A stretch of 64,000 nt of DNA from positions 2,418,001-2,482,000 of the forward strand of contig NZ_JAACJE010000001.1 of assembly GCF_010020825.1 (NCBI RefSeq). The letters run 5' to 3'. Under the pieces are notes generated by a model, which saw only the letters and a list, made by a program, of their open reading frames with translations, made no database searches and was not told the origin of the DNA. This document shows, in pieces, positions 24,674 through 58,549 of the stretch. Within the stretch, counting starts at the first letter, position 1; the number at the start of each line of letters is the position of its first letter. The stretch comes from Acidovorax sp. 210-6. GTDB lineage: Bacteria; Pseudomonadota; Gammaproteobacteria; Burkholderiales; Burkholderiaceae_C. A program made the position numbers and the translations under genes.

Positions 24674-25801
24674 ATGCGCTTGCAAACCTTTCCCACCCCG
24701 CTGCAATGGGACATCTTCTGCCGCGTGATCGACAACTTTGGCGACATCGGCGTGTGCTGGCGCCTGTCCGCCGACTTGGCGGCGCGCGGCCAGCAGGTGC
24801 GCCTGTGGGTGGACGACGCTTCGGCCCTGGCCTGGCTGGCGCCGCAAGGCCACCCCGACGTGCAGGTGCGCGCCTGGGGCAGCCTGCCCGCCGTGCACGA
24901 AGCCCCCACACAGGTGCTGGTGGAAGCCTTCGGTTGCGATATTGCTCCTGAATTCATAGCTAACAGCGCCTGTATTTCAAGCGCCACAGGCGAAAAATAC
25001 CTTTGGATCAACCTCGAATACCTCTCGGCCGAAGCCTATGTGGAGCGCTGCCACCGCCTGCCCTCGCCCGTGCGCGAGGGCGCGGCGCTGGGCGCAGTCA
25101 AATGGTTTTTCTACCCTGGCTTCACCCCGGCCACTGGCGGCTTGCTGCGCGAGACCGGGCTGATGGAGCGCCAGGCACGCTTTGACGCCGCCGCCTGGCG
25201 CGCGGCCCAGGGGCCCGGCACGCCCGACGATGCACCCGACGCCTGCTGGATCTCGCTGTTCTGCTACGAGCCCACCGCCCTGCCCGCGCTGCTGCAGCAG
25301 TGCATGCAGCGCCACACGCGGCTGCTCGTCACACCGGGCCGGGCCACGGCCGCCACGCAGGCCGCGTTGAAAACTTTGGATCAAAATGACCCGCAGGGCT
25401 CACCAGATAAGCGCGGGCAGCTATCGATTTCATACCGCAACACCTGCCCCCAAGCGGCCTTTGACGAGATGCTCTGGGCCTGCGACCTGAACCTGGTGCG
25501 CGGTGAAGATTCGCTGGTGCGCGCGCTGTGGGCCGGCCGGCCGCTGGTCTGGCAGATTTACCCGCAGCACGACAACGCGCACCACGACAAGTTGCACGCC
25601 TTTCTGGACTGGCTGCAGGCGCCCGAATCGCTGCGCCGCTTCCACGCCACCTGGAACGGCCTGGACAACGCGCCCCTGGTGCTGCCCGACAAAACCCTGC
25701 TCGCACAATGGGCAGCCTGCGTGCAGGCTGCGCGCGCGCGCCTGCTGGCACAGGACGACCTGGTGACACAAATTTTGGGGTTCGTGCAGGAAAAACGGTA
25801 A
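24674..25801 (+). CDS. earP: Elongation factor P arginine rhamnosyltransferase EarP
   Basis: EarP transfers rhamnose from dTDP-rhamnose to Arg32 of EF-P. The start at 24674 ([26 protein letters not shown], split here as [12 protein letters not shown] and [14 protein letters not shown]) gives 375 residues. Family features include [10 protein letters not shown], the C-terminal sugar-nucleotide region [23 protein letters not shown] and [11 protein letters not shown]. Two copies of the dispersed repeat lie within the frame, at 24941-25000 and 25369-25433, where other EarP proteins have variable loops. The target gene efp follows directly. Confidence 0.93.
24941..25000 (+). repeat. Dispersed hairpin repeat inside earP (first)
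   Basis: The sequence runs ATTGCTCCTGAATTCATAGC, then AACAGCGCCTGTATTTCAAG, then CGCCACAGGCGAAAAA, matching the repeat in order and spacing. It is read in frame and encodes a stretch just before the conserved WINLEYLS. Its base composition differs clearly from the surrounding GC-rich codons. Confidence 0.72.
25369..25433 (-). repeat. Dispersed hairpin repeat inside earP (second, opposite orientation)
   Basis: Read on the minus strand this runs GAAATCGATAGC, TGCCCGCGCTTATCTGGTGA, GCCCTGCGGGTCATTTTGAT, a good match to the family. It is read in frame on the plus strand in earP and encodes the segment around [20 protein letters not shown], which looks like a surface loop. Confidence 0.75.
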
Positions 25802-35722: not shown

Positions 35723-36436
35723 TCAACGCATCTGCACCGAGCCGGACACCGTCACCTCCACCGTGCTCTTGCCCGCTTCCACTGGCAGCGGGCTGTCGGC
35801 CATGGACGCCATCTTGGCTTCCATGGCCATCATGCGCGGCCGGGGCACAGGCATCTGCCCCTGGCTGCTGACCGACACCTCGCGCAACGTGTAGCCCGCA
35901 AAGCCAAAGGCCTGGGTCAGCGTGGCCGCGCGCACCTTGAAGGCTTCAATCGCCTGTGATTGGGCCTCGCGCTCGGCACGCTCGCTTTCGCTGCGACTCA
36001 GGCCAAAACCCACCTGGGCGATGGGCATGCCCTGGATGCGCGCCGCCGTCGCGGTGATGCGGGCAAAGTCCCGCCCGTGCAGCACCAGTTCGGCGCGGCC
36101 CTGCCAGCCGGTGATCTCACCGTTCTTTCCGTGGCGCGGGTACAGGCTGAACTGGCCGGTGCGTACCTCCATCTGCGGCGCGGCCACCTGGCTGCGCGCC
36201 ACCGTCAGCGCAGCATCGACCACCTGGCGCAACTGTGCCTGCACCGAGCTGGCATCTCTGCCGTCGGCACTGGCCCCAAGGGTGAGGATCAGCTCATCCT
36301 GCTGAACTTCCACGGCCCCACTGGCCGACAGTTGCACCACGTTGCGCGGATCGGCGGCAGGTGCATTTTGAGAAAAAACCGGCAAAGCGCTTACCAATAA
36401 AGCGCTAGTAGCTATTATTTTTATAGCATTTTGCAT
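35723..36436 (-). CDS. Periplasmic SIMPL-domain (DUF541) protein with repeat-derived signal peptide
   Basis: The start at 36436 gives 237 residues: a Sec signal peptide ending near LPVFSQN, then a SIMPL/DUF541 domain (VVQLSASGAVEVQQDELILTL in adjoining parts, VQAQLRQVVDAALTVA, and a C-terminal VEVTVSGSVQMR). SIMPL proteins are periplasmic or outer-membrane associated and of poorly known function. The start codon and most of the signal peptide are encoded by a dispersed repeat copy at 36371-36432. It is convergent with bdhA and divergent from ompR. Confidence 0.85.
   Translation of the reverse strand: MQNAIKIIATSALLVSALPVFSQNAPAADPRNVVQLSASGAVEVQQDELILTLGASADGRDASSVQAQLRQVVDAALTVARSQVAAPQMEVRTGQFSLYPRHGKNGEITGWQGRAELVLHGRDFARITATAARIQGMPIAQVGFGLSRSESERAEREAQSQAIEAFKVRAATLTQAFGFAGYTLREVSVSSQGQMPVPRPRMMAMEAKMASMADSPLPVEAGKSTVEVTVSGSVQMR
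36371..36432 (-). repeat. Dispersed hairpin repeat encoding a signal peptide
   Basis: On the minus strand it reads GCTATAAAAATAATAGC, then TACTAGCGCTTTATTGGTAA, then GCGCTTTGCCGGTTTTTT, a close match to the family. It begins within two codons of the SIMPL start and is read in frame as the hydrophobic core of the signal peptide (IIATSALLVSALPVF). Confidence 0.82.
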
Positions 36437-45475: not shown

Positions 45476-46303
45476 CTACCCTTGCTGCCGTCGGGCCTGC
45501 GCCACGAGCAAGGCCACCACCTCTTCCGTGGCCGCCAGCACACGCTCGCTGTCCCCGGCCACGCGTTCGGCACGCAGGCGCAGTTGGGCCGGCGTGCCCT
45601 CGGCAAACAGGGCTTCCTCGCAAGGCTTCCAGACGCTTCGCAAGCGCGTGGCCGCACTGCGCACCTGCGGGTCCAGCAGGCGGGCGCCCTCCAGCTGCTT
45701 CAACACGGCCGTGAAATGCGCGCGGCTCAGGTGCAGCTCCATGCCCGCCGCGCTGTCGTGGATGTCCCAGGTGCGAAAAAGATAGAACTTGGCCATGCGC
45801 TGCGACAGCATGCGCTGGCGCCCGGCAATGCCTATCCACTGGTTGAATGGCGAGCTGGTCAGGTGCTCGTAGGCCAGCGTGGTCCGGTGAGCGGCCGTTT
45901 GCAGCAACTCGCTGGCGTCGTAGAGCGCCATCGCACCGTGGCGGTGGGGCTCCCCCGCGAGCAGCAGGGATTGGAAGTCGCTCCAGCGCACCTCCAGGGC
46001 CGCAAGCCGTTCCTGCACCACCACCTGGGGCGCAAAGCCCTTGAGCGCCGCAAGGTGCGAAGCAAAACGCGCCACGGAATCATGCAACAAATGGCGGGCC
46101 TCCTCCGCCGCGATCGACTGGCCCCACTGCAGATAGGCTTTGGTGGTGCGCTGCGTGAGCATGCGCAGACGGCCGGACAAGTCCACGGCCGCAGGCACAT
46201 CCAGCTTGGCGGCACCCGCCACCTGGGCGTGGGCCGTGCTTGCGAGCAAGGGGGGGCCCAATGCGCCGCCCAGGAGCCACATGCAGAAGTCGAATCTGTC
46301 CAT
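45476..46303 (-). CDS. Protein with two PilJ-type (type IV pili methyl-accepting) sensor domains
   Basis: The start at 46303 (MDRFDFCMWLLGG), with AAAGGTG upstream, gives 275 residues. A signal peptide or anchor is followed by two related helical modules, each with the PilJ-N/NarX-like signature: SGRLRMLTQRTTKAYLQW and AGRQRMLSQRMAKFYLFR. No methyl-accepting, kinase or cyclase domain follows, so it is a stand-alone periplasmic sensor-type protein. It precedes the cytochrome c4 gene. Nitrate or redox sensing is possible by analogy with NarX, but unproven. Confidence 0.8.
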   Translation of the reverse strand: MDRFDFCMWLLGGALGPPLLASTAHAQVAGAAKLDVPAAVDLSGRLRMLTQRTTKAYLQWGQSIAAEEARHLLHDSVARFASHLAALKGFAPQVVVQERLAALEVRWSDFQSLLLAGEPHRHGAMALYDASELLQTAAHRTTLAYEHLTSSPFNQWIGIAGRQRMLSQRMAKFYLFRTWDIHDSAAGMELHLSRAHFTAVLKQLEGARLLDPQVRSAATRLRSVWKPCEEALFAEGTPAQLRLRAERVAGDSERVLAATEEVVALLVAQARRQQG

Positions 46304-58292: not shown

Positions 58293-58349
58293 GGCAGTCC
58301 CCTGTGCGTGAATAGTGGCAGCGCTGCCCGGCCTTGCAGCGCCAAAAAT

Positions 58350-58515
58350 GGCTCAGGCCGGTCTTCTGGCTTGGAGTCGTCTGCCTTGGCACACCTTCCC
58401 GGCTGGGCAGCCAGTGGCATTTGTGCGCGGCATCGTCCTTACAGCGTTGGGCACGCGGCGGATTTGCACCGCCTTCCCGATTCTCCCGTTGCGTCATCGC
58501 ATTGGGCACCTGAGG
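58350..58515 (-). promoter_or_regulatory. Cobalamin riboswitch upstream of bluB
   Basis: Read on the minus strand, the region shows GGTGCCC, the core GGGAAGGCGGTGCAAATCC, GCCGCGTGCCC, a CTGTAAGGACG segment, AGCCGGGAAGGTGTGCC and the B12-box-like AAGCCAGAAGACCGGCC in the usual order. It ends about 58 bases before the bluB start. This fits an AdoCbl riboswitch controlling bluB and cobT. Confidence 0.93.
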
Positions 58516-58549
58516 GGCGGGATCATAGCAGCGGCAGGCCGCGTATTTC

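Follow-up and report, generated by a model that had tools for sequence, protein, structure and literature searches.

A dispersed two-dyad DNA element of Acidovorax is read in one frame as predicted Sec signal peptides and is probably also maintained as DNA

Introduction

In Yersinia, the predicted signal peptide of YPO1552 derives from the RU-2/YPAL repeat (PMC2759123, PMC2229807). As described in the accessible parts of these papers, RU-2 is a 168-bp, MITE-like repeat, and the leaders of YPO1552 relatives in other genera are unrelated to it. The Rickettsia palindromic elements (RPEs), according to the portion of text available, are read in frame within many unrelated proteins (PMC2229807). 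BRE, a dispersed repeat of Bordetella and Comamonadaceae, is sometimes found within genes; its accessible description gives a length of about 90 bp and, in Bordetella, a GC content of 69%, with copies that are often in tandem and variable in number (PMC3110155). Finally, two spaced motifs have been reported as unexplained (PMC5217627), namely: GCTTAT(N)5AAGCG, with 114 copies in Acidovorax ebreus, and ATAGCT(N)22CAAAAG, with 125 copies in Polaromonas naphthalenivorans. Both come from the bacterial family studied here and, in the accessible text of that paper, are mostly intergenic and near genes, with no function given by the authors.

Here we describe an element of about 70 nt that forms the 5′ end of a SIMPL gene in Acidovorax sp. 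210-6, within a stretch of 64,000 nt that was analysed as a whole (the window). The motif GCTTAT(N)5AAGCG is contained letter for letter in copies of this element, e.g. GCGCTTATCCATCAAGCGC (L034) and also L035, while ATAGCT(N)22CAAAAG shares the ATAGCT half and departs from the present consensus in its other half. What PMC5217627 offers in its accessible part are motif counts and positions, with no signal peptides, orthologue conservation or silent-site signal. In contrast to the worked example of RU-2 in YPO1552, as far as the accessible text describes it, the element here is about 70 nt long and supplies predicted leaders in at least six genes of one genome; it is also conserved over most of a genus, shows constraint at silent sites and has a natural loss clade. 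RPEs are longer palindromic insertions (PMC2229807, accessible part), whereas the present element consists of two short dyads with little net insertion, and leaders are the conserved use that was followed. Identity with BRE was considered and rejected, since about 70 nt and 43.9% GC (60 nt of 91 copies) differ from the roughly 90 bp and 69% GC of BRE's description in the text available. Thus, the bare motif and one repeat-derived predicted signal peptide are already described, as far as the accessible sources go, but no paper tying this Comamonadaceae element to signal peptides or silent-site constraint was found in the open-licence literature (supplements excluded).

Results

The SIMPL gene begins with a copy of the element

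The element comprises two dyads, GCTAT-N7-ATAGC and GCGCtt-N7-aaGCGC. Allowing up to 3 mismatches, the full pattern GCTATN7ATAGCTN4GCGCN9AAGCGC has 318 copies in the genome (146 + 172), and the same pattern written backwards has none. A strand bias is apparent among the genome matches listed, from which we draw no claim. The part of the pattern from ATAGCT on, again with up to 3 mismatches, matches the window 11 times where 1.33 matches are expected, a number reached by 0 of 100 shuffles. The copy at the SIMPL gene satisfies every fixed position of the full pattern and thus has 0 mismatches to this part.

A profile built from 30 copies, with a consensus of roughly TTTGCTATnAAATTnATAGCTGCTnGCGCTTnTTnnATAAGCGCTGGAGGCCnATTTT, finds 10 copies at 20 bits or more in the window, of which the SIMPL copy is the best:

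36356..36434, minus strand: copy forming the 5′ end of the SIMPL gene, from the start codon to past the predicted cleavage site; 50.5 bits
44011..44082, minus strand: intergenic copy; 50.3 bits
6417..6493, minus strand: copy directly upstream of an oxidoreductase-like gene (named by eye); 45.6 bits
56258..56321, minus strand: intergenic copy; 35.2 bits
25366..25434, minus strand: copy antisense within the EarP gene; 31.2 bits
26541..26613, minus strand: intergenic copy; 27.0 bits
18125..18185, plus strand: copy in frame 0 within RibD (RibD_C), APIFIAGRACWIYAAGQFDT; 25.9 bits
46511..46562, minus strand: degenerate copy at the 5′ edge of a divergent gene; 24.9 bits
24940..25003, plus strand: copy in frame 0 within EarP (EarP match), 20 residues; 23.2 bits
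54900..54934, plus strand: partial intergenic copy; 20.5 bits

By the gene finder, 58 of 101 copies examined are intergenic, in a set partly chosen by reading frame.

The gene itself has the following parts:

35723..36436, minus strand: SIMPL (DUF541) gene, 237 amino acids; PF04402, E 2.6e-34
36434..36436, minus strand: ATG start codon, aligned across orthologues
36371..36436, minus strand: predicted signal peptide, codons 1-22, MQNAIKIIATSALLVSALPVFS, by translation

With a PF04402 score of 119.7 bits against a cut-off of 25.2, the protein belongs to the SIMPL family, and it has a distant match to the solved structure 4hvz (E 1.9e-4), a periplasmic protein of 26 kDa. Read on the minus strand from 36436 to 36371, the 5′ end is ATGCAAAATGCTATAAAAATAATAGCTACTAGCGCTTTATTGGTAAGCGCTTTGCCGGTTTTTTCT; its 22 codons, from ATG CAA AAT GCT to GTT TTT TCT, are followed by Q23, before which cleavage is predicted. 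K6 forms the basic n-region, the most hydrophobic 12 residues average 2.31, and V20-F21-S22 precede Q23, which places a small residue at -1 and a small or aliphatic one at -3. The leader thus has the sequence properties of a Sec signal peptide, from which export and cleavage are predicted; [AS]-Q occupies the predicted cleavage column in 12 of 14 aligned SIMPL leaders. The original prediction, that a repeat copy read in frame on the minus strand encodes the hydrophobic core beside the SIMPL start, is borne out by sequence and translation, and the n-region and predicted cleavage site are encoded with it. A copy does lie at the extent first proposed (36371-36432), but the profile match is longer, running from 36434 to 36356.

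An AGGA is found at 36449-36446, 9 nt 5′ of the ATG, and AGGA precedes the start in 8 of 15 listed orthologue loci, counting that of the window. The open frame extends upstream to 36571; in three orthologues (L004, L009 and L010) a stop lies in frame closely upstream of the start. A gene finder based on coding bias places the best start 87 nt past the start of the repeat core, which we attribute to the AT-rich leader.

In several relatives (L005, L006, L010, L013, L017, L021 and L022), element-like DNA was also seen by eye directly 3′ of the SIMPL stop, and some relatives with such DNA have no element-derived leader.

RNA structure is a weaker candidate than upkeep as DNA

None of the window copies has a gathering-level match among 4227 Rfam models, and the one hit at the SIMPL copy is at chance level, to MEG8_1 on the opposite strand, with 13.4 bits where the cut-off is 70. 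The RNA fold z-scores of three copies range from -0.18 to -1.26. Across 91 copies the dyad arm pairs are nearly invariant; three of them pair modestly more often than chance (33 of 91 copies vs. 28.0 expected, 50 vs. 43.4, and 52 vs. 41.4), and one pairs less often (16 vs. 24.5). With a modest pairing excess, poor fold z-scores and no Rfam match of weight, an RNA hairpin as the conserved feature was set aside, and RNA structure is the weaker candidate compared with upkeep at the DNA level. The same window carries a Cobalamin riboswitch (58339-58528, minus strand, 108.6 bits).

The element supplies predicted leaders to five further genes

A profile of 14 SIMPL leaders was searched against the whole genome, giving at least 123 places at E≤10 with 150 of 346 candidates scored. 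From these, 70 loci were read with the codon-bias gene finder and the repeat profile. Five further genes have the element as their N-terminus, in the same frame as SIMPL (protein names from Pfam):

L062: Peripla_BP_6 binding protein, MKFAIKTVAASVMLVSAGAAFAQ; 28.6 bits, the weakest of the six
L063: SCO1-SenC protein, a predicted lipoprotein with a lipobox-like FSAC, MPRRNAIKTIAACAFFVSAGAIFSAC; 59.0 bits
L078: Peptidase_M16 (M16), MNAIKIIAVRALLVSAGVLFYAQSAWA; 54.4 bits
L094: GspD-type secretin (first 530 residues), MPTRSFAIKTIAAAALFMGATGQIHAQ; 41.1 bits
L092: Chalcone_3 protein (chalcone-isomerase-like), MKFIAIAALSISATAFFCMQTAHA; 45.0 bits

Their maximal 12-residue hydropathy is 1.90-2.21. With SIMPL, these leaders bring to at least six the number of different proteins whose predicted export signal comes from the element, and the suggestion that such use might recur elsewhere proved correct. 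In the Chalcone_3 gene (C2:131090-131152) the ATG lies inside the element (GCTATGAAA), which supplies both start and leader.

In-frame start codons are not enriched next to the element: in 200 family genomes, with spacings of 6, 7 and 8 nt before an exact core, ATG-N6-element has 34 exact matches, ATG-N7 has 22 and ATG-N8 has 34. Since the coding frame shows no enrichment at these spacings, use as a leader is occasional.

One reading frame is favoured

The reading frames were surveyed in 91 copies scoring 25 bits or more, part of which had been selected for frame 0, the frame of the leaders. In 67 of them frame 0 runs through 60 nt without a stop, and it is the most hydrophobic frame (mean 1.80). 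Of the other plus-strand frames, frame 1 is open in no copy, because ATAGCT carries TAG, and frame 2, open in 34, encodes a hydrophilic stretch. On the antisense strand the three frames stay open in 35, 42 and 2 copies, and 14 of the 42 reach a hydropathy of 1.6. Hence the original expectation of long hydrophobic stretches in other frames applies to one antisense frame, but frame 0 is the most hydrophobic and frame 1 is never open. Among 33 copies not chosen by frame, frame 0 is open in 23 (mean hydropathy 1.95), and among 55 intergenic copies in 38 (mean 1.91). Since intergenic copies are likewise open and hydrophobic in frame 0, the resemblance to a leader comes as a side effect of the element, and a start codon is all that has to be added.

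Ten different proteins contain an in-frame copy, in one case close to the N-terminus, the kind of in-frame occurrence known from Rickettsia-type RPEs. Copies in frame 0 lie within RibD, EarP, IleRS and an M1 peptidase, and the one close to an N-terminus belongs to a BPD_transp_1 permease. The M1 peptidase we take to be PepN-type, and further hosts are presumably patatin-like, RlmI-like, AMP-binding (acetoacetyl-CoA-synthetase-like), urate-oxidase-type and RecC-like proteins, where the names go beyond the Pfam match. Six of the ten came from a search for frame 0; the four not chosen by frame (L049, L060 and two in the window) are all in frame 0. These internal stretches are less hydrophobic than the leaders (0.48-1.73, nine scored). 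Four PDB alignments with distant solved homologues reveal little net insertion where the element lies in PepN, RibD, EarP and IleRS; this is suggestive only, as the stretches are variable and the homologues distant. Antisense copies within genes occur at 25366-25434 of the window and in L071 and L104; the last (C2:2229700-2232800) has two such copies in called genes, scoring 28.5 and 27.8 bits.

Leader copies are shared by most orthologues of the genus

A search for SIMPL gave 40 places in 38 of 60 genomes, and 30 loci were read. By reading, 13 same-genus loci begin with element DNA, 3 loci of other genera have a degenerate form, 13 are without it and 1 is incomplete (L024). The start codon of the 16 repeat-bearing orthologues is ATG in 15 and GTG in L014. 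Ordinary leaders without the repeat are found in five same-genus orthologues (L017, L018, L019, L021 and L022), and genomes with such leaders (G007, G012, G018, G019 and G022) are nevertheless element-rich. Relatives with unrelated DNA still show a hydrophobic leader at the same place by reading.

Among 80 named SIMPL loci, 56 carry repeat-like N-terminal DNA at 10 bits or more (37 at 20 bits or more, 19 at 10-20 and 24 lower), compared with 0 of 800 dinucleotide shuffles. These loci span Acidovorax, Simplicispira, Giesbergeria, Comamonas, Diaphorobacter, Polaromonas and others, and the SIMPL copy occurs in more than one lineage. The original prediction had been staked on orthologues outside the repeat-bearing lineage lacking this DNA: by reading, the SIMPL orthologues of two other families in the order (L029 and L030) do lack it, so that this check is passed in part; the 56 named loci show the DNA to be widespread.

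Orthologue comparison of the other leaders covered GspD, SCO1 and M16, each in 30 genomes including 18 of the 26 genus genomes, with Peripla_BP_6 and Chalcone_3 left aside. An element score of at least 20 bits is reached by the leaders of 15 of 18 GspD, 13 of 17 SCO1 and 15 of 17 M16 same-genus orthologues read. The M16 gene of G008 is split into L238, which lacks the N-terminus, and L249, which has no element; with L249 counted, the M16 figure becomes 15 of 18. The SCO1 leader of G010 scores 12.5 bits, and eight leaders from other families (GspD L179-181; SCO1 L209, L210 and L213; M16 L239 and L240) give no profile match. The leader reading excluded SCO1 L203 (frame not recovered) and loci that were outside the genus, paralogues or incomplete (SCO1 L211, L212 and L214-L220; GspD L182-L190; and, at the first reading, M16 L238, L241-L248 and L250).

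Some 2 kb downstream of the M16 start, 11 of 15 element-bearing loci have a second copy at a comparable position, as against 0 of 2 repeat-less ones, and a copy lies about 1.75 kb on, near SCO1, in 4 of 14 loci. The leader copies and the second M16 copy fit old, vertically inherited elements. The description of the repeat as inserted gains no support here: copies are in place in most congeneric orthologues read, with silent sites kept, and behave like old, static elements maintained as DNA rather than recent insertions.

Silent sites of the leaders are conserved

Silent-site conservation was measured as codon identity where the residue is identical, over 19 leader codons against windows of the mature part, in element-bearing orthologues. 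Repeat-less orthologues were left out, the G010 SCO1 being counted as one, as were mature windows with 200 comparisons or fewer; the degenerate SIMPL loci L014-L016 were kept here and left out of the third-position test below. Leader codon identity exceeds the mean of the mature windows in all four genes, i.e. SIMPL (0.78 vs. 0.62), GspD (0.84 vs. 0.68), SCO1 (0.74 vs. 0.65) and M16 (0.89 vs. 0.63), and the leader value is reached by 0 of 37, 0 of 136, 0 of 30 and 0 of 80 mature windows, respectively. Residue identity runs the other way, at 0.50-0.67 in the leaders vs. 0.70-0.79 in the mature parts.

As a control, the gene at 45479-46303 of the window had too few orthologues and was replaced by TolB, whose leaders have no element match in 16 genus genomes read. 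In 13 element-bearing genomes, TolB leader codon identity is 0.44 vs. 0.54 in the mature part, and 75 of 76 mature windows equal or exceed the leader. The AT content at third positions is 0.24 in TolB leaders vs. 0.68-0.74 in element leaders, so AT-rich codon choice could explain part of the codon identity.

Repeat-conserved columns were defined from intergenic copies. At 8 such columns, the third codon positions of the leaders are identical at 0.78-0.89, against 0.49-0.66 at 6 repeat-variable columns (values not conditioned on the residue). This column pattern points to upkeep of the DNA motif itself, although gene conversion among copies would produce an equal silent-site pattern.

A clade within the genus has almost no copies

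Among 26 genus genomes, several of them incomplete assemblies (G008 84%), G002 and G008 have 0 copies of the element, G005 has 2, G010 has 93 and the other 22 have 104-356. G002, G005 and G008 are also the genomes without the element in all three leaders (GspD, SCO1 and M16). In a tree of the mature parts of these proteins from 18 genomes, the three group together with 99-100% support inside the genus, with G010 as their neighbour (94%); support at one deep node is low (27%). The nested position argues for loss of the element in this clade rather than ancestral absence. G010, its sister, with 93 copies and a decayed SCO1 leader, possibly shows loss in progress.

Leaders of the repeat-less clade are still hydrophobic (1.47-2.21, 8 scored), and their length differs by 0-1 residue from the one repeat-bearing leader compared per gene. 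Their AT content at third positions is 0.21-0.39 (the SCO1 value includes G010), against 0.68-0.74 in element leaders. Where the residue is the same, codon identity between repeat-bearing and repeat-less leaders is 0.27 for GspD, 0.28 for SCO1 (G010 taken as repeat-less) and 0.68 for M16, which indicates that decay is less complete in M16. SIMPL was not found in G002, G005, G008 or G010 in the search of 60 genomes, and hence the natural loss bears on GspD, SCO1 and M16 only. For SIMPL, repeat-less orthologues have a codon identity of 0.56 vs. 0.62 in the mature part, over 34 comparable codons, which are too few to use.

Discussion

We favour, with reasonable though far from full confidence, the reading that a two-dyad element of about 300 copies encodes, at some gene starts and always in one frame, predicted Sec or lipoprotein signal peptides, and is also maintained as DNA across the genome. 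One stretch of DNA would then likely carry two messages, a predicted protein export tag and a chromosomal signal. Frame 0 reads A-I-x-x-I-A-x-x-A-x-x-x-S-A, which would give a near-ready hydrophobic leader after an upstream ATG, and the leaders of the SIMPL, GspD, SCO1, M16, Peripla_BP_6 and Chalcone_3 proteins would export them. Sense copies would be tolerated mainly in frame 0, as ATAGCT gives a stop in plus-strand frame 1. A putative trans-acting factor, in the simplest case a DNA-binding protein specific for the dyads, or else conversion between copies, would keep the sequence. In G002, G005 and G008 this factor may have been lost, upon which the motif would have decayed everywhere and selection on the protein would have kept only a hydrophobic leader.

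A bolder and more tentative version, to which we give somewhat less than even weight, takes the element as the recognition site of an undescribed genome-wide Comamonadaceae system that binds chromosomal DNA or homogenises copies, with hundreds of sites, some of which at gene starts double as signal peptides, and with the three genomes as a natural knock-out. If this is true, the DNA is dual-coded, with amino acids that drift while the motif stays, and G002, G005 and G008 have lost, within one genus, both the system and nearly all of its sites, whether intergenic or coding.

The strongest rival, which we consider rather unlikely, is a mobile MITE- or REP-like element that hopped beside start codons and donated signal peptides, the silent likeness reflecting young insertions or gene conversion. 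The high copy number would suit it, as would copies in one frame inside unrelated genes, which in the accessible text are known for Rickettsia RPEs and enterobacterial RU elements (PMC2229807); conversion, moreover, would preserve silent sites. However, the GspD, SCO1, M16 and SIMPL positions are common to most congeneric orthologues read, whose mature silent sites have diverged, so the leader copies are not young, and comparison with distant homologues reveals little net insertion at the internal copies in PepN, RibD, EarP and IleRS. Gene conversion also has to contend with a locus-specific Arg kept in 13 of 15 M16 leaders, which makes wholesale conversion unlikely.

That the likeness reflects nothing but AT-rich 5′ codon usage and the generic composition of hydrophobic signal peptides is very improbable. 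The third positions of the leaders are indeed AT-rich (0.68-0.74), but this account is largely refuted by the 16 TolB leaders without a match and by the SIMPL 5′ shuffles (0 of 800 at 10 bits vs. 56 of 80 real loci), and the zero-mismatch core of the SIMPL copy also speaks against it. We give just as little credence to a true SIMPL start further downstream, with the repeat as 5′ untranslated DNA of a cytosolic protein: the late start of the gene finder (87 nt past the repeat core start) and the AGGA-like site before only 8 of 15 orthologue starts are outweighed by the alignment of start codon and leader across the 16 repeat-bearing orthologues (15 ATG, GTG in L014), a cleavage column kept in 12 of 14 leaders and the hydrophobic leader read in relatives with unrelated DNA.

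Signal peptides are usually regarded as free to vary in DNA while hydrophobicity persists. Four unrelated predicted secreted proteins here show the reverse, i.e. the peptide varies and the DNA is kept, a pattern suggesting that this very common element has a further function at the level of DNA. Related genomes with about 300 and 0 copies are a ready natural experiment for finding the candidate factor, and the leaders illustrate a route whereby a dispersed DNA element can supply predicted export signals.
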